32,181 nt of DNA, from the NCBI GenBank assembly GCA_030538425.1, contig JAUNTZ010000031.1, positions 1 to 32,181 of the forward strand. The letters run 5' to 3'. This document shows positions 7,373 to 32,181 of the stretch, piece by piece; position 1 is the first letter of the stretch, and each line of letters starts with the position of its first letter. The DNA comes from Paracoccus sp. (in: a-proteobacteria). Its GTDB lineage: Bacteria > Pseudomonadota > Alphaproteobacteria > Rhodobacterales > Rhodobacteraceae. The position numbers and the translations under genes are program-made. The notes under the pieces were generated by a model. The model was given only the letters and a program-made list of their open reading frames with translations. It had not been told where the DNA came from and made no database searches.

Positions 7373-10087
7373 GTCGGCGGCATCCTTCTTCGCCGCCGCC
7401 TTCCGCGTCGCGGGCTTTTTCGCGGCAGTCCCGGTCTCTTTGGCAGAGGCCGCCTTGGCTGCTGGCTTTTTCGCCGCCGCCTTCTTGGCCGGAGCCTTCT
7501 TCGCCGCAGCTTTCTTTGGCGTGGCCTTCTTTGCCGCCGGTTTCTTCCCGCCCTTGGCCGCCTTGGCTGCGATCAGCTCAAGCGCCTGCTCTAGCGTCAC
7601 ATCTTCGGGCGTCACATCGCGCGGCAGGGTCGCGTTTACCTTGTCCCATTTCACATAAGGGCCATAGCGCCCGTTCATCACCGAAATCGCGCCGCCCTCG
7701 GGGTGGTCGCCCAGCTCGCGCAAGGGGGCCGCCGCCGCCGCGCGACCGCGTTGCGGCTTGGCGGCCAGAACCTCGACCGCACGGTTCATGCCGATGGTGA
7801 AGACCTCATCCACATCGGGCAGATTGGCGTATTTCTTGCCGTGCTTGACGTAGGGACCATAGCGGCCAATCGCCGCCTCGATCATCTCGCCATCCTCGGG
7901 ATGCGGGCCGATCTGGCGGGGAAGTCCCAGCAAATCAAGCGCTTGCGCAAGGCTCAGCGTCGCCAGATCCCAGCTTTTCGGGACCGAGGCGCGGGGCGGT
8001 TTCGGCACATCTTCGGTGGCCTCGCCGCGCTGCACATAGGGGCCAAAGCGGCCATTGCGCAGGCTGATCTCATCGCCCGCATCCTCACCCAGAACGCGGT
8101 CGCCCGCGGGCTCTTCGCCGCCGGGCGCGGAGAGCGCGCGGGTATAGCGGCATTCGGGGTAATTGCCGCAGCCGATGAACGCACCGCCCGAACGCGCGGT
8201 CTTGAGGCTCAGCCGGCCCTCGCCGCATTGCGGGCAGGTGCGCGGGTCCGAGCCGTCCTCTCGTGGCGGGTAAAGGTGGTCGGCCAACGCGTCGTTGATC
8301 GATTCCAGCACCTCAGAGATCCGCAGCTCGGACGTGCCGTCCAGCGCGGCGCTGAAATCGCGCCAGAAGCGGCGCAGAACCTCACGATATTCGCGCCCGC
8401 CAGAGGAGATATCGTCCAGCTCAGACTCCATATTCGCGGTGAAATCATAACTGACATAGCGCGGGAAGTAGCGGCTGAGAAAGGCCGTCACCAGCCGCCC
8501 CTTATCCTCGGGGATCAGGCGGTTCTTGTCCTTGCGGACATATTCGCGGTCCTGAATGGTCGTCACGATGCTGGCATAGGTCGAGGGGCGGCCGATGCCC
8601 AACTCTTCCATCGCCTTGACCAGAGTGGCCTCCGTATAACGCGGCGGCGGCTGGGTGAAATGCTGGCGCGCCAGCACCGCATCGGCGTCGTCGGTGAGGG
8701 TCTGGGCGGGGCTGTCACCCTCGGCCAGCCGCGCGGCCTCGGCGCGCAGCCCGCCCGCGAGTTTGGCGGCGGGCTCACCTTCCGAGATCTGGGGCAGGCG
8801 GGCGCCGTCCTCATCATCCTCATCATCGCGGCCCTGATCGTAAACCGCCAGAAACCCGTCAAACAGCATCACCTGACCCGTCGCGCGCAGGCCGACCTGC
8901 GCGTCGGCGCTGGCAATCTCAACCGTGGTGCGCTCCATCCGCGCAGATTCCATCTGGCTGGCGATGGTCCGCTTCCAGATCAGATCATACAGCGCGCGCT
9001 GATCCTTGTCGGTGATCCGGGCGCGGTCGGGGGACAGGTTGGGGTCGGTCGGGCGGATACATTCATGCGCCTCTTGCGCGTTTTTCGCCTTGTTTTTCCA
9101 CATACGCGGCGATTTCGGCAGGTAATTCTCACCAAATCGCGCCTTGATCGCGTCACGCGCGGCCATCACCGCCTCAGGCGCCATGTCGATGCCGTCGGTC
9201 CGCATATAGGTGATCAGCCCGGCCTCATAGAGGCGTTGCGCGGTGGACATGCAGGCCCGCGCGCCCATGCCCAGCTTGCGGCTGGCCTCTTGTTGCAGGG
9301 TCGAGGTCATAAACGGCGGCCAGGGGTTGCGGCTGGCGGGTTTGGCGGTGACCGAGGCGACGCTCAGATCGCGCGAGGCGATGGCCGAGACCGCCAGCCG
9401 CGCCTTTTCGGCGCTTGCCAGATCGAAACGGTCAAGTTTTTTGCCGGTGAGGCTGGTCAGCGTGGCCTCATATTCCTCACCCGAGGGGGTGGCGAGGCGG
9501 GCGCGGACTGACCAGTATTCGCGGGGCTTGAAGGCCTCGATCTCCATCTCGCGTTCGACAATCAGGCGCAGGGTGACGGACTGGACGCGGCCCGCCGATT
9601 TGGCGCCGGGCAGCTTGCGCCAGAGCACCGGCGAGAGGTTGAAGCCGACCAGATAATCCAAAGCGCGCCGCGCCAGATAGGCGTCAACGAGGTCGCGGTC
9701 GATATCGCGCGGGTTGGCCATCGCCTGCGTGACGGCGGTCTTGGTGATCGCGTTGAAGGTGACCCGGCTGACCGATTTGCCCTTTTTGAGCGCGGGTGCA
9801 AGCGCCTCAAGAAGGTGCCACGAGATCGCCTCACCCTCGCGGTCGGGGTCGGTCGCAAGAATCAGCGAATCGTCATCGGCCAAGGCATCGCGGATGGCCT
9901 TGATGTGCTTTTTGCTGTCGCTCGCGACCTCCCATTTCATGTCGAAATCGGTGTCGGGATCGACCGAGCCATCTTTCGGCGGCAGGTCGCGGACATGCCC
10001 GAACGAGGCCAGAACCGTGTAATCGTCGCCCAGATATTTGTTGATCGTCTTGGCCTTGGCCGGAGATTCGACGACGACGACAGGCAT
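7364..10087 (-). CDS. topA: DNA topoisomerase I
   Basis: This type IA topoisomerase (907 aa) relaxes negatively supercoiled DNA by passing one strand through a transient break. The TOPRIM domain starts at residue 2 (VVVVESPAKAKTI), with the metal-binding acidic cluster ATDPDREGE at 78-86. The catalytic tyrosine is Tyr294 in LITYMRTDG. A zinc-ribbon-like module (CPQCGEGRL...IGCGNYPECRY) follows the core, then repeated C-terminal modules with GRYGPYVKxGKKYA and similar motifs. The last 55-60 residues are a lysine/alanine-rich tail of KKPAAKK-type repeats resembling histone H1. The start at 10085-10087 has GAGGAGA upstream. The stop codon lies inside the terminal copy of array B, so the extreme C-terminus may have been shaped by that repeat. 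Confidence 0.97.
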   Translation of the reverse strand: MPVVVVESPAKAKTINKYLGDDYTVLASFGHVRDLPPKDGSVDPDTDFDMKWEVASDSKKHIKAIRDALADDDSLILATDPDREGEAISWHLLEALAPALKKGKSVSRVTFNAITKTAVTQAMANPRDIDRDLVDAYLARRALDYLVGFNLSPVLWRKLPGAKSAGRVQSVTLRLIVEREMEIEAFKPREYWSVRARLATPSGEEYEATLTSLTGKKLDRFDLASAEKARLAVSAIASRDLSVASVTAKPASRNPWPPFMTSTLQQEASRKLGMGARACMSTAQRLYEAGLITYMRTDGIDMAPEAVMAARDAIKARFGENYLPKSPRMWKNKAKNAQEAHECIRPTDPNLSPDRARITDKDQRALYDLIWKRTIASQMESARMERTTVEIASADAQVGLRATGQVMLFDGFLAVYDQGRDDEDDEDGARLPQISEGEPAAKLAGGLRAEAARLAEGDSPAQTLTDDADAVLARQHFTQPPPRYTEATLVKAMEELGIGRPSTYASIVTTIQDREYVRKDKNRLIPEDKGRLVTAFLSRYFPRYVSYDFTANMESELDDISSGGREYREVLRRFWRDFSAALDGTSELRISEVLESINDALADHLYPPREDGSDPRTCPQCGEGRLSLKTARSGGAFIGCGNYPECRYTRALSAPGGEEPAGDRVLGEDAGDEISLRNGRFGPYVQRGEATEDVPKPPRASVPKSWDLATLSLAQALDLLGLPRQIGPHPEDGEMIEAAIGRYGPYVKHGKKYANLPDVDEVFTIGMNRAVEVLAAKPQRGRAAAAAPLRELGDHPEGGAISVMNGRYGPYVKWDKVNATLPRDVTPEDVTLEQALELIAAKAAKGGKKPAAKKATPKKAAAKKAPAKKAAAKKPAAKAASAKETGTAAKKPATRKAAAKKDAADEG

Positions 10088-10197: not shown

Positions 10198-12846
10198 TCA
10201 GCTCAGCGCGATCTGGTTGCCCCGCAAACGGATGACGCGGCCTTCAAGTTCAAGGGCTAACAGGGTCGGGGCGAGACCCGCAGCGGTGAGCCCGAGGTCT
10301 CGGATCAGCATGTTTTCGTCCGAGGGGCTGGCCGACAAAAGCGAGATGATCCGCGCCGCCAGATTGGCCGGTCCGCCATCGTCGGGGTGGGGTGGGGCTT
10401 GGCTGGCGGGGCCGCCGTCGCGGGGCGGGTGAGCGACGGGGTTGGTCGGGCCGCCATCGTCAGGGTGATGTGAGGCGCTGTTGATGGGTCCGCCATGGCG
10501 GCGCGGGTGAGCGGCGTGGTTGGCTGGGGTCTCGCGGTGAGGGTGCTGCGGGGCGCGGGTGCCATGGGCCGAGTGGTTCGAGACATAGCCGACCGGGCCG
10601 CATTGCCGGGGCGGCGGTGTGGTGTGGTTGTTCGGGGCGTGGTGATCCAGGTGCTGCCCGGCGCGGGCGACTGGGGCAACGTGGTCGGACTGATGGGAGA
10701 CCTCGCCGACGGGGCCGCATTGCCGGCGCGGCGGCGCGGTTTGATCGCCGGGGGCGCGGTGATCCGGCTGCTGCGCTGAGCGGGTGACATTGACGGCGTG
10801 CTCGGGGTGGTTCGAGGCTTCTCTTACGGGCTCACCTCGGTCGGTGTGGCGAGCGGTTTGATTGATGGGAGCATAGCGTCGCGGTTGCTGTGAGACCTGA
10901 GGGAAGTCCGCGCGATGGGGCGGGTGATGCGAGACCTCACTGATGCATGTGCCTTGTCGGGGCGGTTGCGCGCTGTGGCGGTTGGGGGCGCCGTGGTCTG
11001 GTTGATTTGAGACGCTATTGACCTCTGCCCCGTGGTCGGGGTGATGCGAGACATCGCTGATGGACATGCCTCTGTCGGGGCGCCGCTCGGTTTGCTTGGC
11101 GGGAGCGCCGTGTCGCTGTTGGTATGAGGCCTGGGTAACGTCGACGCCGTGGTCGGAATGGTGCGATACCTCGCGGATTGGCGCGGCTCGGAGCGGGTGT
11201 TGTGTGGTTTGGTCGTTGGTCGCTCTGTGGTCTGTGTGATGTGAGGTCTGGACGGCCTCCACGCCGCGATGGGAATGATGCGAGACATCGCTGATGAGCG
11301 CGCTTTTCCCAAGGTGCTGACGAGCGTGGTTGGTGGGGGCGCCATTGCGCCGTTCTTGTGAGGTGCGGGGGGGCTCGATGCGGTGGTCCGGGTGATGCGA
11401 GATGTCGCTGATGGGCATGCCACGGTCGGGATGGTTCGAGATGGCGCTGACGGGCACGCCGTCGCCGGGGTGCGGCGCGGGGTGGTCGGTGGGATCACCG
11501 TGGTCCGGGTGATGTGATGCGCGGGCGACTGGTACATCGTGGCGAGATTGTTGCGAGACCTCGCGGATAGGGCCTCCGTGGCGCGGCTGGTGTGAGGCGG
11601 GGGCGCCGTGGTGTGTGTGACGCGTGGCGGCGGCCGAGGTTTCGCCCGGCGTTGCGGGATGGTTCGGTGGCGGGGCGCTTGGGCGCGAGGATGGCTCTGC
11701 GAGCGTGGGTTTGTTGCGTTGAGATGCGGAGGGTGGATTCTCTGGGTTTAGCTCTCGCTGGTGTGAGTGGTCGGGCGGGGATGCGGCATCGCGGGATGCG
11801 TGCTGCGCGCCTTTATCGGGGTGCGGGCTGGCATGGTCCTCCCGCGCGGGTTTTGCCTGCGCGTTGGTGCGGTTGCGGTGCGCGGGCGTGTTGTTTCGGC
11901 GCGGCGAGGCTAGCGCGTCCTCGGTCGGAGCCGCGCGCGCAGCGGGCTGCCAGTCACTCGTGTCACCGCCAGGCCCGCCCGTCGCGGCGATCACGTCTGC
12001 CGCGTTGCGCACGAGGGTTGCGCCGTCGCGGATCAGCAGGTTGCAGCCGCCCGCGCGGCCATCGGCGGGGTGGCCGGGGACGGCCATCACCTCTCGGCCC
12101 TGATCGGCGGCGAGGCGCGCCGTAATCAGGCTGCCCGATTTCACCGCCGCCTCGACCACGACGACGCCTGCAGCCAGCCCTGAGATGATCCGGTTGCGCA
12201 ACGGGAAATGGCGCGCGACGGGCTCGGTTTCGGGGGGGTGTTCGCTGACCAGACAGCCCCGGTCGCAGATCGTCGCGGCAAGAATGCGGTTCTCGGACGG
12301 GTAAACCACGTTCACGCCGCCCGCCATGACGGCGATTGTGCCGTCTTTGAGGCTCGCCTCATGGGCGGCGGTGTCGATGCCGCGCGCGAGGCCCGAGACC
12401 ACGCCCATCCCCTCAGCCGCAAGGGCGCCCGCCAGCCCCCGCGCCATGCGCAGCCCAAGCGATGAGGCGTCGCGCGCCCCGATCACGGCGATCAGCCGGC
12501 GGTTCAGTGCGGCAAGGTTGCCCTTGACCCAAAGCGCGGGCGGTGCGTCCGGGATTTCGCGCAGCAGCGCGGGATAATCAGGCGAATCAATCAGGATCAG
12601 CCGCGCACCGGCGCGGTGGCCAGCCGTCAGCTCCGCCTCGGCCACGCCTTCGGGGCAAGGCGCGTAGCCGCGAACGCCCGACTGGGCCGCAATGTCGGGC
12701 AAAGCGGCAAGCGCTGCCGCAGCACCGCCATGTTCGGCGACCAGCCGGTGAAAGGTTGCGGGCCCGACCCGGCGCGAGCGGATCAGCCGAAGCGCCGAGA
12801 GCGCATCACCACAGATAGGGCGCGAGGGGGTGAACAGTTTCAGCAT
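10198..12846 (-). CDS. dprA: DprA (Smf), DNA-processing protein with a large repeat insert
   Basis: DprA binds incoming single-stranded DNA and loads RecA during natural transformation. In Rhodobacter capsulatus it is also needed to receive gene transfer agent DNA. Residues 1-75 form a SAM/helix-hairpin-helix-like N-terminus. The Rossmann domain covers about 80-290, with IAVIGARDASSLG, GMGVVSGLARGIDTAAH, GCLVSEHPP and SGSLITARLAADQGREVMAVPG. The C-terminal winged helix is at 831-882 (ARIISLLSASPSDENMLIRDLGL). The usual length is about 360-400 residues; this one has 882. The extra part is a Pro/Ser/His-rich linker (300-406) plus about 420 residues of 13-residue repeats (407-826). The frame is open throughout and both flanking domains are intact, so I treat it as one functional gene. 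The start is the ATG before the conserved N-terminus. Confidence 0.92.
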   Translation of the reverse strand: MLKLFTPSRPICGDALSALRLIRSRRVGPATFHRLVAEHGGAAAALAALPDIAAQSGVRGYAPCPEGVAEAELTAGHRAGARLILIDSPDYPALLREIPDAPPALWVKGNLAALNRRLIAVIGARDASSLGLRMARGLAGALAAEGMGVVSGLARGIDTAAHEASLKDGTIAVMAGGVNVVYPSENRILAATICDRGCLVSEHPPETEPVARHFPLRNRIISGLAAGVVVVEAAVKSGSLITARLAADQGREVMAVPGHPADGRAGGCNLLIRDGATLVRNAADVIAATGGPGGDTSDWQPAARAAPTEDALASPRRNNTPAHRNRTNAQAKPAREDHASPHPDKGAQHASRDAASPPDHSHQRELNPENPPSASQRNKPTLAEPSSRPSAPPPNHPATPGETSAAATRHTHHGAPASHQPRHGGPIREVSQQSRHDVPVARASHHPDHGDPTDHPAPHPGDGVPVSAISNHPDRGMPISDISHHPDHRIEPPRTSQERRNGAPTNHARQHLGKSALISDVSHHSHRGVEAVQTSHHTDHRATNDQTTQHPLRAAPIREVSHHSDHGVDVTQASYQQRHGAPAKQTERRPDRGMSISDVSHHPDHGAEVNSVSNQPDHGAPNRHSAQPPRQGTCISEVSHHPPHRADFPQVSQQPRRYAPINQTARHTDRGEPVREASNHPEHAVNVTRSAQQPDHRAPGDQTAPPRRQCGPVGEVSHQSDHVAPVARAGQHLDHHAPNNHTTPPPRQCGPVGYVSNHSAHGTRAPQHPHRETPANHAAHPRRHGGPINSASHHPDDGGPTNPVAHPPRDGGPASQAPPHPDDGGPANLAARIISLLSASPSDENMLIRDLGLTAAGLAPTLLALELEGRVIRLRGNQIALS
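10369..11628 (-). repeat. Coding minisatellite C in dprA: 39-bp units in 117-bp trimers
   Basis: About 32 copies of a 39-bp (13-residue) unit form ten or so 117-bp (39-residue) higher-order repeats. The Ser codon in the VS(H/N)(H/Q) motif starts on the minus strand at 11556, 11439, 11400, 11283, 11166, 11049, 10932, 10815, 10698, 10581 and 10473. The steps are 117, with one extra 39 (a single added subunit) and one 108 (a 9-bp deletion). All steps are multiples of three. Three subunits of one trimer read ISDVSHHPDHGAE, VNSVSNQPDHGAP and NRHSAQPPRQGTC. His makes up roughly 10-15 % of the units counted, and Pro, Gln, Asn and Arg are also frequent. No hydrophobic core is possible, so the segment is expected to be disordered. 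Confidence 0.95.
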
Positions 12847-23653: not shown

Positions 23654-23934
23654 TCTGCCGCCTGATCCATCAGATGCCGCGCCCACCGGCCCGCCGCCCA
23701 TGTCGCGGGGATGCCCAGAAACACCGCGATGACCACCGATTGCCACGGATCAAGGCTTTGCCAGCCCACCGCGCGAAAGATCAGCGAGCCCAGAAACAGG
23801 TTGATCGCCACCGCCGCCGCCGTGAACGGATAAAGCAACAGCGCGAGTTTCCAGACCGGCCACCGGCCCGGTTCGGGGCCCGCACCCGGATCAGTGACTG
23901 GTTCCATCGCTGAAGGTGATCTTGTTCCAGACAT
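23650..23934 (-). CDS. Small membrane protein overlapping the 3' end of nirN
   Basis: This 94-residue, unrecognised protein has two hydrophobic helices: residues 28-52 (WKLALLLYPFTAAAVAINLFLG) and 62-80 (PWQSVVIAVFLGIPATWAAG). The C-terminus is polar (RWARHLMDQAAE). It overlaps nirN by 44 bases if the ATG at 23934 is used (weak GGGGA upstream) or by 17 bases with the ATG at 23907 (MEPVTDPG). The choice is uncertain. It is coupled by ATGA to a second small membrane protein. Being locked to nirN by overlap, it is likely co-expressed with the heme d1 genes. No domain was recognised, so a role in d1 delivery or nitrite reductase assembly is only a guess. Confidence 0.72.
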   Translation of the reverse strand: MSGTRSPSAMEPVTDPGAGPEPGRWPVWKLALLLYPFTAAAVAINLFLGSLIFRAVGWQSLDPWQSVVIAVFLGIPATWAAGRWARHLMDQAAE

Positions 23935-25447
23935 TGTATTTCCCCGAAGGCTTGCTCATCGGCAGGCGGGTGACTTCTTCCAGCGTTTGCGCATCATAGA
24001 CGATCACCGCGCCGTCGTCCTCCCAGATCGACACAAGCGCATAGCGCCCGTCGCGGGTGAACTCGGTATGGGCGACCGTCATGCCGGGGGCCGGGTCAAG
24101 CGTGCGCACGATTTCCAGCGTTTCCTTGTCGATGATATGCATCTTGTCGCGGTTCGGGCCAAAGAACACATCGGCCCAGACATAGGGGCTGTTTTCGTGG
24201 CTGCGCAGGAAAAAGCCCGGGCCCATCGTCTCGATGGTCTTGACCAGTTCCCATGTGTCGATGTCGATCACCGACAGCACGCCTTCGTTCAGGTGCGGGG
24301 TGGCCATGACGCGGCGACCGCCGCTTTCCCATGTGATGCCGGAACCCAGATGCGGCATCCCCGGCAGCGGAAGTTCCGCGATCTCGCGTCCCACGTCCAG
24401 ATTGACGACAACGCCCTTGTCACCCTCGCGGTTGGTGCCGATCAGGTGGCGATAGTCGGGGGTGAAGAAAAAGTCGTCAAGCGGCTGAGAGGTCAAGATG
24501 CGGCGGCGGGCGAACAGGCCCTCTTGCGCGCCCACGGCCTCGACCGCGCCGGGCTGATAGTTATGGACAAGTCCTTCGTAAAAGGGGCCGAATCCGTCGC
24601 TTGTCCCGATTTCCCAGATCTCGGGGGCGTCTTTCAGCGCGAGGATGAAGCTTTCGCGCTGCGGGGCCTGATAGACCGCGCTGACCCGGCTTGTCGCGCC
24701 GTCGCGGGTCTCGATGGGGATGATGCGCAGCGGCGTCAGATCCTCCGTTGACAGGATGGTCAGCGTGTGAGGCAGGTAATTCGCGACCGCCAGATATTGC
24801 CCGTCCGAGGACATGGCGATGTTGCGGCTGTTGATGCCCGCGCGGATGCGCCCGACCTCTTGCAGCGACCAGATGTCGTATTTCTGCACCCAGCCATCGC
24901 GCGCCATCACAAAGACATAGCGCCCGTCGGGGCTGAATTTTGGCCCGCCATGCACCGCATAGGGCGTCTCGAACCGATCCAGCACGGTCAGCGCGTCGCC
25001 GTCCAGAACCGAGATATGGCTGTCTCCGGTTTCCACCGCGAGGGTGATATTCATCGGGTCGGCGTCAAAAACCGGGGCGTCGGCGGGCGTGTAATCGGGG
25101 CGCATCTCGCGGCTGGCCAGCATATCCGCCTCGGTCCAGTCGGGCATCTCACCCAGGGGCGTGCGGATATAGTCGACAAGCGCTTCGATCTGCGCAGGCT
25201 CCAGAATGTCGGAATAACCGATCATCTGCGTGGCCGGGCGGCCGTCCGCGATGGTCGTGGCAAGCGCTTCGGCGCTTTGGCGGCCCAAAGCCTCGGGGAT
25301 CAGCGCGGGGCCGGTGCCGCCCAGACGGGTTTCGGCGTGGCAGGTCGCGCAATAATCATTGTAATCGCCCACCGCATCCGCAGCGGCGGCAAGCGGGAAC
25401 AGCGCCGCAATCAGCGCGAGATTAAAAGAACTGATGGGCCGGATCAT
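23891..25447 (-). CDS. nirN: NirN, periplasmic c/d1-type dihydro-heme d1 dehydrogenase
   Basis: NirN is a NirS paralogue that oxidises dihydro-heme d1 to heme d1, the last synthesis step. The 518-residue product has a signal peptide (residues 1-23, ending AAAADA) and one c-heme site at Cys33-Cys36-His37 (CATCH). A short cytochrome c domain has MIGYSD as the likely Met-ligand region. The C-terminal eight-bladed propeller shows repeated strands such as [30 protein letters not shown] and [15 protein letters not shown]. The ATG at 25447 was chosen because it begins the signal peptide; it overlaps nirJ by 26 bases. Full nirS has the same architecture, but gene order and the much lower similarity identify this as NirN. 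Confidence 0.92.
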
Positions 25448-26645
25448 GGCTTTTGCCCCTGAAGGGAAGGTTGGTGACGCGGGCCATATCGGCATCGACG
25501 CCGATTTCCGCATTGGTGAGATAGCAGGCCGGGTCCTCGGCCCAGGGGTCGCCGGTCAGTTGCAGCGCGCGGATGCGCGTGTTGCCGCCGCAAACAGCCT
25601 GAAACGCGCAGGCCCCGCAGCGACCCTTGAGCGGGCGCGGGCGGGTGCGCAACGTGGCCAGCATCGGATCGTCGCCGGTCCACCATTCCGAAAACGGGCG
25701 CTTCTTGACGCTGCCCACGGTATAGTCGGACCAATAGGTGTCGGGATGGACATTGCCCTGCGGGTCGATATTCGCCACCCCCACGCCCGAGGAATTGCCA
25801 CCCCATGCCTCAAGATGGGCGCGGACATGGGCGACCTGTTCGGGCGAGAAACGCTGTTCGGCCCAACGCAGAAACCAGACCGCATCGGCGTCATTATTGC
25901 CCGTCACGATTTCCAGATCCCGCCCCGCCTCGACCGCAGCCCATGCACGATCCAGCAACATATCCATCGCGGCGCGGGTATGGGCATGTTCGGTATCCTC
26001 GCCGCGATGCTTGTCGCCGCGCCCCGCATAAACCAGATGCGAGAGATAGAACTTGCCCACGCCCTCGGCCTCGCACAGGTCGATCATCGCGCCCAGATCA
26101 TGCGCGTTCTCGCGGGTGATGGTATAGCGCAGGCCCACCTTGACGTCGCGGGCGAGACAAGCGCGCACGCCCTCCAAAGCCTCGGCATAGGCGCCCTCGA
26201 CGCCGCGGAACCAGTCATTGACCGCGCCAATCCCGTCCAGCGAGATCCCCACATAATCAAAGCCCAAATCGGCCACCCGCGCGGCATTCTCGCCGCCCAG
26301 ACGGGTGCCGTTGGTGGACAGCGACAGATGACGAAAGCCCAGATCGCGGGCGCGTTCCGCCAGTTGCCAGAAATCGAACCGCGACAGAGGCTCGCCGCCC
26401 GACAGGATCAGCGCGGGGATGTCGAACGCTTTCAGGTCGTCCAGAACCCCCATCGCCTGTTCGTGGCTCAGCTCGCCCGGAAAATGCACATCGGCGCTTG
26501 TGGTGTAGCAATGACGGCATTTGAGGTTGCAGCGCCGGGTCAGGTTCCAGATCACCACCGGCTTGACCATGCCGCCTTTGGTTGCGCGGCGGCGCACGGG
26601 CGTGGGGTTCACCAATTGGTGCATATATTGGGTCAGGCGAAACAT
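25422..26645 (-). CDS. nirJ: NirJ, radical SAM enzyme of heme d1 synthesis
   Basis: NirJ is a radical SAM protein that removes the two propionate side chains of 12,18-didecarboxysiroheme on the way to heme d1. The [4Fe-4S] motif is Cys39-x3-Cys43-x2-Cys46 in [17 protein letters not shown], with SGGEPL at 82-87. A C-terminal SPASM-like cluster has Cys343, Cys346, Cys352 and Cys374 ([14 protein letters not shown]). The length of 407 is close to other NirJ proteins. The start follows nirH by 13 bases, with GGAAAG upstream, and the 3' end overlaps nirN by 26 bases. The protein resembles AhbC/AhbD of alternative heme synthesis, but the nir context makes NirJ clear. Confidence 0.95.
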
Positions 26646-26658
26646 CGTTGCGCTTTCC

Positions 26659-27159
26659 TTATTTGTTCAGCCGCAGCCCGGTTTTCTTGAGAATCCGCGT
26701 CGAATAGAGGATATCCGAGGCGCGGCAGGCATCACCCAGAATATCCGCGATCTGTTCGCGTTTGGCCTCGACCGTGTCGCGATCCGGGCCGTGGACCATC
26801 GCAAACAGGTTATAGGGCCAGATCTCGCCGGCGCGCGGGCGCAGATAGCAATGCGTGACAAAGGGCAGCGCGCCGACCTTCTCACCCAGTTCCACCGCGA
26901 GGGCGTCCTCGACATCCCAGACGCTCATCCCGTTGGCCTTCATGCCAAGCGCGTAATGGTTCGGCGCAAGCGCGATGCGGCGGATCACGCCGCGCTGATG
27001 GAGGCATTGCATGCGGGCGATGATCTCAGCCTCAGAGCGGCGCAGCCATTGGGCAATCTCGGCATAGGGCCGCTCAACCAGAGGCAGGCCCGCCTGCGTC
27101 GCCGCGACGATCTTGCGGTCGATCTGGTCCAGCGGTTCGGGCGGCGAATGGGCGTTCAT
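26659..27159 (-). CDS. nirH: NirH, siroheme decarboxylase subunit
   Basis: This 166-residue AsnC/Lrp-like protein works with NirDL and NirG to decarboxylate siroheme to 12,18-didecarboxysiroheme. It has an N-terminal winged-helix ([27 protein letters not shown], then [21 protein letters not shown]) and a C-terminal Lrp-type domain. The latter has the conserved [24 protein letters not shown] segment. The helix-turn-helix is a remnant in this family rather than a proven DNA binder. The ATG overlaps the nirG stop (ATGA). The C-terminus [13 protein letters not shown] is typical of this subunit type and is shared with the NirL half of NirDL (STRCFKQTGALI). Confidence 0.93.
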
Positions 27160-27662
27160 GCGGCGACCCTGAAACCGATGAAGAATTCATGCAATTTGGG
27201 AAATAGCAGCACGGGGATGCCTGTCTCTTTCTCGATCCGGCGCGCGCAGCGCCCGATTTCGTCGGGTGTTTCGGTGGCCAGCACGAACCACATGTTCAGC
27301 TGGTGGTTGCGTTCATAATTATGCGCCACTTCGGCATTCGCATTGACCAATGTCATGACGCGTTCGAAATCGGCGGCGGGCACCTCCATCGCGCAAAGGC
27401 AGAACGCGCCACCCATCGCGGCGGCGTCATAGAAGGGGCCAAAGCGGGTGATTGCGCCGATCTCACGCAGATGGCGGATGCGGTGGATCAGCTCGGCCTC
27501 GGAGATGCCGAACTGGCTTGCGGCCTCGGCGAAGGGGCTCTCACAGATCGGCAAGCCGTCCTGCAAGCCGTTGATGATCTGGCGGTCGGTCTCATCCAGA
27601 GCATCGGGCGGCAGGGTGTGGCGCAACTTGCGGGCGGGCTGTTCGGCGGCTTCGGTGGTCAT
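27156..27662 (-). CDS. nirG: NirG, siroheme decarboxylase subunit
   Basis: This 168-residue AsnC/Lrp-like protein is a paralogue of NirD, NirL and NirH. It contains LDETDRQIINGLQDGLPICESPFAEAA and SEAELIHRIRHLREIGAITRFGPFYD in the helix-turn-helix part. Then come MEVPAADFERVMTLVNANAEVAHNYERNHQLNMWFVLA-type core strands (residues about 90-127) and the C-terminal FIGFRV. The His-Asn-Tyr in AHNYER matches the His of NirD (NHSYLRE) and NirH (THCYLR). It is coupled by ATGA to nirDL upstream and nirH downstream, which suits a multi-subunit decarboxylase made in fixed ratio. Confidence 0.93.
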   Translation of the reverse strand: MTTEAAEQPARKLRHTLPPDALDETDRQIINGLQDGLPICESPFAEAASQFGISEAELIHRIRHLREIGAITRFGPFYDAAAMGGAFCLCAMEVPAADFERVMTLVNANAEVAHNYERNHQLNMWFVLATETPDEIGRCARRIEKETGIPVLLFPKLHEFFIGFRVAA

Positions 27663-28654
27663 TGGCCTTGCTCCTGCTGGGGGGCGATCAAGGCCCCGGT
27701 TTGTTTGAAACAGCGCGTTGAGAACAATACCTTATGGGCCGTATCGCGCAGTTCCGGCAGGGCGCGGGCGCGGGCCAGAACCGCACTCGCCTCATCGCGC
27801 GAACGGCCGTGGATCATGCAAAACAGCGGCCAGTCCCAGACCCCCGGCACGATGCGGCGGCGATAGGAGAGGGTGACGCCGGGCAGCGCGGCCAAGGCGC
27901 GACCCGCCGCGTCGATGCGGTCCTCGGCGGGCCGCCAGACCACCATCGCATTGTCGCGCCATCCAAGCGGGCGGTGGCGCACGATCACGCCGACCCGAGT
28001 CAGCAGCCGCGCGCGGGACAGCGCGCCGATGCGGTCGATGATCTCACCCTCGTCGCGGTCCAGCCGCGCGGCCAATGCGGCAAAGGGCTGCGGCACAAGC
28101 GCCAGACCGGATGACAGCGCCTGCATCAGCGGGCGGTCATCCTCGCGCAGAACCGACAGATCGGCGTCACGATCCGCGCCCATCGCGCGCCGCGGCCCGT
28201 TCAGGCGAAAGCCCAGGTCGATATTATAGGGCGTCACCAAAGGCAGCGACAGCACCCGCAGCCCCGCGCGCGCCCCGATCCGCGCAAGGCTCGCGTCAAG
28301 TGCTGTCTGATCCGGCGCGGTGGCGACGAACCAAAGATTCCATGCATCCTCACGCAAATAGGAATGGTTCACGCCCGGCTCGGCACCCACAATCGCCGCC
28401 ACCTCGTCGATGCGCCCCTCGGGGATGGCAAGCGCGGCAAGGGTCGAGGCCCCGGCGCAATTGGGCCGGCAGGTCGCGCCCACCCGCGTGATCCGCCCCG
28501 CCCTTTGCAGCGCGTCAAGCCGCGCGATCACCTCGGCCTCGGGGATGCCAAGCGCCTGACCGATGACCGCGAAGGGGCGCGAGACAAGCGGAAAGTCGCG
28601 CTGAAACTCATCCAGCAGGCGCAGATCGGTGGGGCAGGGGCGTTCGTCCAGCAT
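27659..28654 (-). CDS. nirDL: NirDL, fused siroheme decarboxylase subunits D and L
   Basis: This 331-residue fusion joins two complete AsnC/Lrp-like subunits that are separate genes in Pseudomonas. Residues 1-155 are NirD-like (LLDEFQRDFPLVSRPFAVIG, EAEVIARLDALQRAGRITRVG, VNHSYLREDAWNLWFVATA). A linker around 160-180 contains LNGPRRAMGADRDADLSVLRE. Residues about 182-331 are NirL-like (PLMQALSSGLALVPQPFAALA, EIIDRIGALSRARLLTRVGVI, VTLSYRRRIVPGVWDWPLFCM). Fused NirDL is known from other Rhodobacterales. The start at 28652-28654 was chosen because similarity begins there; it lies one base after the nirF stop. An in-frame upstream extension to 28726 overlaps nirF and lacks similarity. Confidence 0.93.
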   Translation of the reverse strand: MLDERPCPTDLRLLDEFQRDFPLVSRPFAVIGQALGIPEAEVIARLDALQRAGRITRVGATCRPNCAGASTLAALAIPEGRIDEVAAIVGAEPGVNHSYLREDAWNLWFVATAPDQTALDASLARIGARAGLRVLSLPLVTPYNIDLGFRLNGPRRAMGADRDADLSVLREDDRPLMQALSSGLALVPQPFAALAARLDRDEGEIIDRIGALSRARLLTRVGVIVRHRPLGWRDNAMVVWRPAEDRIDAAGRALAALPGVTLSYRRRIVPGVWDWPLFCMIHGRSRDEASAVLARARALPELRDTAHKVLFSTRCFKQTGALIAPQQEQGQ

Positions 28655-28655
28655 C

Positions 28656-29828
28656 TTACAGCCCCAGCCTGTAGGCGCGGTCGGTGAAGAAGATGCCCGA
28701 GGGCGCCTCGGCCTCGATCTCGCCAATCACCTCATAGCTGCGCGTGTCGCGGATCTCGACCCGGTTTTCATCGCGCACTGACAGCCAGACCTCGCGCCCG
28801 CGCGGCGTGAATTCCATATGCAGCACGCCGGGACCGGGGGTGAGGGTCTGGATGACCTCATGCGTCATCGTATCGATGACTTGCAGCGTGTCGTTATGCG
28901 GCGGTGCGAAGTTCACCCAGATTTCCCGCTCATCCGGGCGGGCAAGGGCAAAGATCGGCTGGCCGTGAAGCTCAGTGCGCCCGGCCTCGGTCAACCCTTC
29001 CGCATCGACCCAGAGAAGCTGATGGAGGCCGACCGCTGGCAGCGCGAATGTATCACCTGCAAGCGTCCAGCCCTGAAGATGGGGCATCTTGTAAACCGGC
29101 AGGTCTTCTTCATCCTTGCCGTAATCGGGCAGGAAGCGGACCGGCTGCGGGTCGTCCGCCCACAGGTCGATGGCGGTCAGGCCCTTTTCACCGAACAGCC
29201 CGACGATATAGGTCCGCCCGTTGCCGGTCATCAGCGCGTCATAGGGGTTCGCGCCCACGCCCTCCAGCCGGGTGATGGCGGGATTGGCGGGGTCGCCCGA
29301 ATGATCGAGAATCCAGACCTCGCCCGTGTCCCATGTCGCGACTATAAAGCGGTTGCCGGGCACATCGGCCAGACCTACCGTCTTGCTGTCCATCGGGATA
29401 TCGGCCACCAGTTCCAGCGTGTCCGCATCAAAGACCTTGACCCCGCCGGGTTCGTAATTCGACACGGCGACAAGGCGACCGTCATCGGAAATCGCCCCGC
29501 CGATGGAATTGCCGCCCTGAATGATGCGATTCGCGATGTCCATCGTGGTCAGGTCGATCTTGGTCAACCCGCCATCGCGGCCAAAGACATAGGCAAACCG
29601 CTGATCGGGCGAAAAGGTCACGCTGGCATGGGACAGATCGCCCAGACCCTCAATCCGCGCCAGTGATTCGCGCCGGGTATGCGAGACGACAAGGACCGAG
29701 CCCGTTGCGCGTTCGATCACAAGGCCCAGCTCGCCTGTGACAACGACATCATGCGCGGCGGTTTCGGCCATCGCCGTGGCGGCAGGAAGGGCCAGTAGCA
29801 GGGCGGCAAGGGCGGGGCGGAGCATCAT
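28656..29828 (-). CDS. nirF: NirF, periplasmic heme d1 biosynthesis protein
   Basis: NirF is a d1-propeller protein without a c-heme domain, needed for a late step of heme d1 synthesis; in Paracoccus and Pseudomonas it is periplasmic. The 390-residue product has a signal peptide (residues 1-21, LAALLLALPAATAMA). Beta-propeller strands follow: GELGLVIERATGSVLVVSHTRRES, VTFSPDQRFAYVFGRDGGLTKID, YIVGLFGEKGLTAIDLW and EVWLSVRDENRVEIRDT. No CxxCH is present, as expected. Two adjacent ATGs exist (29828 and 29825). The first forms an ATGA overlap with the nirC stop, so it was chosen. nirDL starts one base after the stop. Confidence 0.94.
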   Translation of the reverse strand: MMLRPALAALLLALPAATAMAETAAHDVVVTGELGLVIERATGSVLVVSHTRRESLARIEGLGDLSHASVTFSPDQRFAYVFGRDGGLTKIDLTTMDIANRIIQGGNSIGGAISDDGRLVAVSNYEPGGVKVFDADTLELVADIPMDSKTVGLADVPGNRFIVATWDTGEVWILDHSGDPANPAITRLEGVGANPYDALMTGNGRTYIVGLFGEKGLTAIDLWADDPQPVRFLPDYGKDEEDLPVYKMPHLQGWTLAGDTFALPAVGLHQLLWVDAEGLTEAGRTELHGQPIFALARPDEREIWVNFAPPHNDTLQVIDTMTHEVIQTLTPGPGVLHMEFTPRGREVWLSVRDENRVEIRDTRSYEVIGEIEAEAPSGIFFTDRAYRLGL

Positions 29829-30205
29829 TCGGCCTCCTTTTCGGTCAGAAGATAATCGGCAATCCAGCGGGCTTCGGCTTCGGTTAACAGCGGACGCCAG
29901 GGTGGCATCGCGGTGCCGGGAAGCCCGTCAAGAATGATCTCGGCCAGTCCCTCGGGATCGCGTCCGGCAAGATCAGCGGGGGTGATCGCGGCGCCAAGAC
30001 CGCCTTTCATGGTCAGCCCGTGGCATGATCCGCAATCCTGAATGACGATATGTTCCAGCACCGCCGCGCGTTCGGGCGTGACGGCAGCAATCGCCGTTGA
30101 TCCGGCCGCATCCGTCGCCGTGCCGCCCGCCAGCACCACCGCCGCGCCAAGGCACAGCGTGGCGGTGGCGGCACCCATCGACAGGATCAGGGCGGCCTTA
30201 TGCAT
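29825..30205 (-). CDS. nirC: NirC, c-type cytochrome (cytochrome c55x)
   Basis: This 126-residue mono-heme cytochrome of the nir cluster is thought to pass electrons to NirS or to take part in heme d1 maturation. An N-terminal hydrophobic signal segment covers residues 4-27. The heme site is Cys58-Gly-Ser-Cys61-His62 (CGSCH). The C-terminal GTAMPPW supplies the usual Met ligand, and the protein ends in ARWIADYLLTEKEAE. Spacing is normal for class I cytochrome c. It overlaps nirE by 8 bases and nirF by the ATGATG junction. Confidence 0.93.
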   Translation of the reverse strand: MHKAALILSMGAATATLCLGAAVVLAGGTATDAAGSTAIAAVTPERAAVLEHIVIQDCGSCHGLTMKGGLGAAITPADLAGRDPEGLAEIILDGLPGTAMPPWRPLLTEAEARWIADYLLTEKEAE

Positions 30206-30986
30206 GGGCGATCCTTAATGCAGGGCGCTGTGGCAGCAATTCGGCAGGCAAGGGCAGGCTGGCATCGCCGTAAAGCGACACCACCCGCCCGATCATGAAC
30301 AGCACGGGCGCGGGCATCGGGTTGGCGGCGATTTCATCGGCAATCCGGTCAAGGGTCGAGACCAGCCGCCGCTCGCGCGGGGTGGTGGCGTGGGATACGG
30401 CCATGACCGGCGTTGCGGCAGGCAGGCTATGGGCGATGAGCTGCGCCGAGATCTGGCCGATATTCGCCGCGCCCATATAGACGACAAGCGTCGCGTCAGG
30501 ATCGGCCAGCGACCCCCAGTCAAGCGTCAGCGCCGCGTCGCAGGCGCGATGCCCGGTCACATAGCGCAACCCGGTCGCCAGCCCGCGATGGGTCAGCGGC
30601 ACCCCGGTCGAACAGGCCGCCCCTTGCGCGGCGGTGATGCCGGGCGTGTAATCATAGGCGATGCCTGCGGCGCGCAGCTCTTCGGCCTCTTCACTGCCGC
30701 GCCCGAAAATCAGCGGGTCGCCCCCCTTGAGCCGCGCCACGCGCAGCCCCTCACGGGCCAACTCGACCAGAAGCGCGTTGATCCGGTCCTGCGGGACGGC
30801 GTGAAAACCGGCCTCTTTTCCGACCGCGATGCGGCGGGTGGCGCGCGGGACAAGCGCCATGATCTCGTCCGAGACAAGCCGGTCATAGACCACCACATCG
30901 GCGCCTTCGATCAGGCGCAGCGCGCGGATGGTCAGCAATTCGGGGTCGCCCGGACCCGCGCCGATCAGATGGACCTTGCCTGACAT
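30198..30986 (-). CDS. nirE: NirE, uroporphyrinogen-III C-methyltransferase
   Basis: NirE (SUMT family, 262 aa) methylates uroporphyrinogen III with SAM at C2 and C7 to give precorrin-2, the entry to siroheme and heme d1. Visible family motifs are VHLIGAGPGDPELLTIRA (residues 5-22), VVYDRLVS, ARLKGGDPLIFGRGSEE (84-100), YTPGITAAQGAACSTGVPLTHR and a late VVYMGAANI. It lacks the CysG dehydrogenase/chelatase domain, so another protein must make siroheme from precorrin-2; none is in the window. It is the first gene after nirS, separated by 76 bases and a strong hairpin. A cobA-type gene would look the same, but the context is nir. Confidence 0.94.
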   Translation of the reverse strand: MSGKVHLIGAGPGDPELLTIRALRLIEGADVVVYDRLVSDEIMALVPRATRRIAVGKEAGFHAVPQDRINALLVELAREGLRVARLKGGDPLIFGRGSEEAEELRAAGIAYDYTPGITAAQGAACSTGVPLTHRGLATGLRYVTGHRACDAALTLDWGSLADPDATLVVYMGAANIGQISAQLIAHSLPAATPVMAVSHATTPRERRLVSTLDRIADEIAANPMPAPVLFMIGRVVSLYGDASLPLPAELLPQRPALRIAHA

Positions 30987-31023
30987 TCTGGCTTCCTCGA
31001 TGGGTTGCTGGAAGGGAAAGGGC

Positions 31024-31042
31024 GGGGGGCTGCGCGCCCCCC
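31024..31042 (-). terminator. Stem-loop between nirS and nirE
   Basis: A perfect 7-bp GC stem (GGGGGGC at 31024-31030 with GCCCCCC at 31036-31042) encloses the loop TGCGC. It begins 20 bases past the nirS stop and lies 38 bases before the nirE ATG. On the minus strand it is followed by GCCCTTTCCC, a pyrimidine run but not a pure T-run. It probably ends or stabilises most nirS transcripts, while readthrough feeds the heme d1 genes. This gap is the only nir junction in the window of more than 20 bases. Confidence 0.65.
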
Positions 31043-31062
31043 GGCCCGGTTGTCAAAAGGGA

Positions 31063-32181
<1,119 letters not shown>

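Follow-up and report, generated by a model that had tools for sequence, protein, structure and literature searches.

The proteins of the DprA family load RecA onto incoming single-stranded DNA (ssDNA), and the gene described here raises the question of how far the segment between their Rossmann-fold and winged-helix (WH) domains can be lengthened, and whether selection has had a hand in keeping it long. The gene lies in a stretch of 32,181 nucleotides from Paracoccus sp. (GenBank assembly GCA_030538425.1, contig JAUNTZ010000031.1, positions 1 to 32,181), hereafter called the window. On the minus strand of the window, an open reading frame (ORF) at 10198..12846, which begins with ATG and has no internal stop, encodes 882 residues. 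The original prediction, made from the letters alone, read it as a DprA in which a coding minisatellite separates two intact domains by about 530 residues. The analysis confirms that the ORF is a genuine DprA, with its Rossmann and WH domains intact around a giant linker built mostly of repeats. What is new is a DprA with a repeat-grown, probably disordered linker, and an enlargement that is extreme for the genus.

The enlarged DprA and its domains

The 882-residue ORF matches the NCBIfam model TIGR00732 (dprA) with 234.4 bits against a cut-off of 191.15, and its domains, all on the minus strand, are recognized above the cut-offs of their Pfam models. These are the HHH domain DprA_N (PF21102; residues 14-75, 12622..12807; E 6.5e-26), the Rossmann-fold domain DNA_processg_A (PF02481; residues 78-280, 12007..12615; E 2.6e-72, 242.9 bits against 29.6) and the winged helix DprA_WH (PF17782; residues 818-877, 10216..10395; E 6.2e-11, 42.6 bits against 22.9), whose Pfam start overlaps the last unit of the repeat array. 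These are the same domains, in the same order, as in the classical three-domain DprA/Smf proteins (HHH/SAM, Rossmann, and WH = DML1), such as PDB 3maj, which we take to be the DprA of Rhodopseudomonas palustris and to which residues 17-289 align. In the accessible portion of one source, the R. palustris protein is listed with all three domains (PMC9769556). A short interdomain linker is usual for DprA but does not define it; here it is replaced by one of 528 residues, against a genus median of 38.

The window DprA also shares both ssDNA motifs with the classical proteins. According to the same portion of that source, motif 1 is G-S/T/A-R and motif 2 is F/L/Y-x-x-R-N/D (PMC9769556). A pattern scan places motif 1 at GAR (residues 123-125, 12472..12480, minus strand), a site picked by its position within the Rossmann domain, GAR being present at 80-82 too, and motif 2 at FPLRN (residues 214-218, 12193..12207, minus strand), with a pattern that LLIRD at 270-274 fits as well; both patterns are short.

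A coding minisatellite organized in trimers

The linker, whose length of 528 residues is the measure used in the genus survey described below, consists mostly of tandem repeats. Its leading part (residues 291-426, 11569..11976, minus strand) is of low hydropathy and is not segmented into units. It is followed by the array proper (residues 427-826, 10369..11568, minus strand), in which autocorrelation, segmentation and families of direct repeats spaced 117 and 39 nucleotides apart delimit 31 units of 13 residues (39 bp), grouped in trimers of 117 bp. Twenty-nine units have the full 13 residues; the other two, shortened to 12 and 11 residues (10525..10593, minus strand), hold an in-frame loss of 9 bp, and one additional 39-bp unit, closest to type A, breaks the trimer order at residues 466-478 (11413..11451, minus strand). 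All of these length changes, recovered by segmentation as they had been foreseen, preserve the frame. The earlier count of about 32 copies starting at residue 407 needs a small correction: 31 units start at residue 427, and the unsegmented residues 407-426 may hold degenerate leading copies.

The higher-order register is evident from the nucleotide identity of the array with itself, which reaches 0.556 at a lag of 117 and 0.495 at a lag of 39, against a mean of 0.31 over lags 1-359, with the highest peaks at 117 nt and its multiples and the next at 39 nt. Units of the same trimer type are more alike (identity 0.59) than units of different types (0.487), and none of 2000 permutations of the type labels did as well, in a comparison of 28 full units that omits the extra unit and both short ones. 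The period of 39 bp in trimers of 117 bp is thus borne out. Consecutive complete trimers are 53 to 71% identical, the longest exact repeat within the gene is 21 nt, and Tandem Repeats Finder (TRF) detects just the last few copies of the array. With tandem units in one open frame and a higher-order register, the array has two of the properties expected of a coding minisatellite with higher-order repeats.

Probable selection on the repeat units

The absence of a stop in 2.6 kb was originally read as a sign of selection. The frame is indeed open, but over the array the dprA strand has one stop in the +1 frame and five in the +2 frame, and because the +1 frame contains only one, an open frame is weak evidence by itself. 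The ratio of nonsynonymous to synonymous change (omega) between repeats, which had been proposed as a check, is 0.369 when trimers are compared in the DprA frame, and the two shifted frames give 1.13 and 1.90. Under the MG model, the likelihood ratio against omega = 1 (twice the gain in log-likelihood) comes to 18.7 for the DprA frame, 0.02 for the +1 frame and 5.5 for the +2 frame, the last with an omega above 1. None of 40 neutral simulations on the tree reached an omega of 0.369 or less, their minimum being 0.669. The frame comparison and the simulations are based on the nine complete trimers, with the gapped trimer and the extra unit dropped; with 10 trimers or 29 units omega lies between 0.32 and 0.46, depending on the model.

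A more demanding null is one in which selection maintains the composition of the protein and nothing else. Such simulations reach the observed omega in 6 of 40 cases, and omega alone is therefore no proof that the positions within the unit matter. The excess of conservation at codon positions 1-2 over position 3, which amounts to 0.128, was matched by 2 of 500 composition-only simulations, run at five tree scales. A test based on amino-acid identity gave 94, 71, 23, 4 and 0 matches in 100 simulations at tree scales from 0.6 to 1.0; being scale-dependent it is not relied on here, and in a separate run at full scale 0 of 40 simulations reached the observed value. All these nulls were begun from equilibrium sequences and not from one founder unit. 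Between trimers, 36% of the amino-acid residues still match. Taken together, an omega below 1 in the DprA frame only and a conservation specific to codon position support protein-level selection on the array, as had been claimed, and suggest, at a moderate level of confidence, that particular positions of the unit have kept their residues.

Age and origin of the array

Four-fold degenerate sites are 0.572 identical between trimers (0.31 after correction for composition), and 0.48 to 0.54 identical (0.15 to 0.24 corrected) between the core of this dprA and those of seven relatives, so that synonymous divergence among the copies of the array is nearly as great as that of dprA between species. 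Because the trimer value comes near those of the core against relatives, the array appears to be old and not the result of a recent burst, and by the four-fold measure it would be somewhat younger than the splits from the seven relatives.

None of the 124 other Paracoccus genomes carries the array, and tblastn (E 0.01) gave no match to it in plasmids or phages. In a sample of 394 genomes of the family (E 0.001) two matches were obtained, that of the window itself and one in genome G521, which spans 80 residues, has a stop in a short frame, has an E-value of 5.6e-4 and is taken as a chance match. Within its own genome, the DNA of the array has, beyond itself, only short matches (the best other at E 0.005 over 26 bases). 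A shared origin with the linkers of relatives was also considered and rejected: 60 of 200 shuffles score as well against the array as the real linker of genome G132, and for G132 and seven others taken together the range is 13 to 182 of 200. For the linker fragment of G033, which is cut by the end of its contig, 9 of 200 shuffles were as good, both against the array and against the leading part, a weak signal among nine comparisons.

Linker length and repeats across Paracoccus

The dprA region of all 125 Paracoccus genomes was surveyed, and linker lengths were taken from the 117 in which both domains lie in one frame. The median is 38 residues and the range 15 to 528; the second-longest linker, of 159 residues, belongs to G132, the nearest relative of the window genome both by TopA (92%) and in the dprA tree (support 94). 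In this tree, a quick one built from DprA alone, the group that includes the window (support 98) has 13 genomes with full linkers of 26 to 528 residues (median 53), a second long-linker group (support 83) has 16 genomes with 44 to 158 residues (median 87), and the remaining 88 genomes have linkers of 15 to 65 residues (median 29). In other genera of the family, among the matches listed, 16 long-frame members have linkers of 14 to 79 residues, measured to an end point on the WH side that lies some 3 residues before the one used in the genus survey; these 16 come from the part of the 374 matching genomes for which places were listed and are not strictly the longest, so that a longer linker may occur among the rest. 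Since their linkers are so short, the extra length of their frames lies mostly elsewhere. The comparison with relatives that had been called for thus finds the array absent from 124 other genomes and the linker repeatedly lengthened in the genus: lengthened linkers are not unique to the window gene, which is the extreme case.

At a score of 50 or more, TRF marks 11 of the 117 linkers, including that of the window; the best periods run from 6 to 48 bp and are without exception multiples of 3. None of 116 equally long stretches from the cores of the same genes was marked, a control that is too lenient for low-complexity sequence. Codon shuffling is stricter: over 50 rounds with 116 shuffled linkers, a mean of 1.7 was marked (range 0-5, best score 97), against 10 of the 116 real ones, and the period was divisible by 3 in 50 of 86 shuffled cases against 11 of 11 real ones. 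Five of the ten other repeat-bearing linkers score 80 or more. Repeats therefore recur at the Rossmann-WH linker in this genus, and the excess over shuffles stands. Like that of the window, the other repeats have whole-codon periods (6 bp in G013 and G027, 48/90 bp in G090 and 30 bp in G102) and occupy the same place in the same gene; they differ in the sequence of their units and in belonging to linkers of 158 residues at most. Those of G013 and G027 and the 48-bp repeat of G090 are probably young, since their copies match at 100%.

Of the eight genomes without both domains in one frame, three end at a contig edge and five are broken or cut otherwise. In G033 (L058), G092 (L129/L073) and G137 (L071/L072) the contig breaks off either within the DprA linker or where it starts, for which reason expanded linkers may be under-counted in draft assemblies. 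The linker fragment of G033 is at least 96 residues long and has several His residues. The dprA match is split, or carries a stop or a change of frame, in G030, G128, G101, G146 and G001, through either sequencing error or true decay; G101 and G128 nonetheless keep both domains in one frame.

Composition and predicted disorder

The segment had been described as a long disordered tether rich in His and Pro. His makes up 11.9% of the window linker, against 2.0% of the pooled linkers of 116 other genomes, and among the 54 of these linkers that have at least 40 residues none exceeds 6.4%; a single linker of 30 residues (G140) reaches 10%, which corresponds to three residues. Pro makes up 14.4%, which does not exceed the 16.7% of the other linkers. 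The compositional peculiarity of the window linker is therefore His, and not Pro. A His/Pro-rich repeat region is also known from the mammalian histidine-rich glycoprotein, which is another protein with another unit.

Basic (K, R) and acidic (D, E) residues are balanced over residues 296-826, with 53 of each, and in the charge-hydropathy plane the linker and the array fall on the disordered side with a net charge of about zero, while the two ends of the protein fall on the folded side. An AlphaFold model, built on an alignment of four rows, shows neither helix nor strand from residue 290 to residue 825 and improves at the WH domain, with helices and strands at 826-881 and block means of 65 to 83 from residue 821. 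The linker is thus probably disordered, as hydropathy and charge suggest and as the model weakly supports.

Genomic neighbourhood

The ORFs that flank dprA in the window encode TopA and TldD, and TopA adjoins dprA likewise in G086, G132 and G131. The C-terminal tail of TopA (7465-7546) has a short Ala/Lys-rich coding repeat (15/30 bp) with a weak match to histone H1-like proteins. Farther away, at 23891-32130 on the minus strand, a radical SAM ORF and three ORFs that carry cytochrome d1 heme domains together resemble a cluster for the heme d1 of nitrite reductase (nir).

A proposed role for the tether

The reading we favour, and consider reasonably probable, is that of a real DprA with a disordered tether that has expanded through the duplication of repeats and has been maintained by selection on the protein. 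One unit would first have tripled, and the trimer would then have multiplied through slippage or unequal crossing-over, in a linker that appears to tolerate in-frame growth in Paracoccus. The result would be a disordered tether, near-neutral and rich in His, through which the WH domain becomes uncoupled from the Rossmann core. WH domains could then make long-distance contacts with DNA or with other molecules of DprA, so that the higher-order assembly of DprA and ssDNA would be altered, in transformation or in uptake from gene transfer agents (GTA), with the chemistry of the core unchanged. Long reach, metal binding and condensation would be possible properties of the tether, as would the effects on ssDNA holding or RecA loading that the original prediction proposed.

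The comparison with better-known systems gives this proposal some shape. In Helicobacter pylori, as far as the accessible part of the source goes, the N-terminal (Rossmann) domain of DprA suffices for DNA binding, and higher oligomers and the assembly of nucleoprotein require the C-terminal domain, which is placed behind a linker of 8 residues (PMC4489622); the corresponding linker of the window has some 530 residues, mostly tandem repeats. The bacterial ssDNA-binding protein (SSB) offers an analogy, and no more than that, of a length-variable disordered tether leading from a DNA-binding domain to a small C-terminal interaction element. According to the available excerpt, this tether measures about 25 to 125 residues, both its length and its make-up influence how cooperatively ssDNA is bound, and its length is argued to set the reach and the local concentration of the SSB tip (PMC7145534). 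By the same logic, a tether of about 530 residues might allow the WH domain to reach farther and leave it less concentrated in the vicinity of its own Rossmann core. SSB is, however, a different protein, and the 13-residue array is not described in that excerpt (PMC7145534). Nor was any report of a repeat-built DprA linker found in the literature searched, which left subscription papers and preprints mostly outside.

A role in DNA uptake is plausible, since the genome encodes both a ComEC-type Competence domain, within an open frame of 778 residues, and a GTA TIM-barrel domain, within one of 1292 residues (contig C38), and since DprA is required in Rhodobacter capsulatus to acquire DNA delivered by gene transfer agents, as stated in the part of the source at hand (PMC10883770). 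A second GTA_TIM-like gene in the same genome (contig C71:50410-51007) is broken into three pieces, one of them with a TAG.

Weighing the alternatives

Several points weigh against the account of a selected, repeat-grown tether, which in its entirety is drawn from sequence and computation. The array is known from a single draft genome (86.6% complete), with no second genome carrying it, and its WH match, when the 122 genus genomes that have one are ranked by E-value, belongs to the weakest three. The AlphaFold model has a mean pLDDT of 39 and is poor over most of the Rossmann domain as well, so that little follows from its low confidence in the linker. The linker of the nearest relative, G132, fails to align with the array above shuffles and therefore gives no trace of the path of growth. 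Among the repeats of other linkers, five of ten are weak (G117, G148, G004, G023 and G064; TRF 51-59), one or two marked linkers per survey are expected by chance and may be among these, and the strongest, that of G090, is in a linker that holds one undetermined base. To these must be added the composition-only null that reaches the observed omega. It could also be argued that the array was wrongly built or inserted by assembly or binning, since the source is a draft of 2.69 Mb in 92 contigs, probably metagenome-assembled to judge from its assembly figures, and no other genus genome examined has the array. Collapse or invention by a short-read assembler is nevertheless unlikely, because the copies are unequal, the longest exact repeat is short and TRF sees only the last copies; the frame is also open throughout the gene and the TopA-dprA adjacency is that of three other genomes, all of which makes such an artefact extremely improbable.

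The alternative that deserves the most attention, although it remains on the unlikely side, is that the array does nothing: any soluble disordered sequence would serve, and selection would act only against loss of the WH domain, purging frameshifts and stops. The hypervariable length of the linker in the genus, the differences between species in its sequence and repeats, and the composition-only simulations at or below the observed omega all agree with this idea. It fares worse against the rejection of frame-only neutrality (0 of 40), against a position-specific conservation that just 2 of 500 composition-only simulations reach, and against four-fold sites that have diverged far between trimers while 36% of the residues match. 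At the other extreme, the array might be a gained multivalent segment, responsive to metal or pH, or a scaffold for condensates in which DprA is brought together on the ssDNA that enters the cell. The His content, the conserved unit positions and the balance of charges would suit such an element, but it has no known ligand or partner, the His may be a founder effect of the first unit, one short linker, that of G140, has 10% His with three residues, and no convincing relative of the array was found in the genus, the family sample, plasmids or phages; we regard it as very unlikely. A broader version, in which a positionally conserved, multivalent, His-rich array gives DprA a new property (such as pH- or metal-dependent clustering on incoming ssDNA, or the bridging of distant DprA-ssDNA complexes by long-reach WH domains) and in which clades of Paracoccus tune DNA uptake or GTA reception through tether length, is a speculation that we hold to be doubtful. 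The reading of a disordered tether grown by duplication and kept by selection on the protein is therefore the one retained here.

Significance

DprA is the mediator through which DNA entering the cell is passed on to RecA, and what its C-terminal WH domain contributes is understood only in part. The gene of the window is a case of a bacterial coding minisatellite, within a recombination gene, that has been retained long enough for protein-level selection to become apparent between its copies. Beyond this single gene, a tether between the Rossmann and WH domains that ranges from 15 to 528 residues within one genus, partly through the growth of repeats, constitutes a natural length series, and if tether length changes oligomerisation, DNA bridging or the uptake of DNA from gene transfer agents, the orthologues of Paracoccus can show the effect directly.

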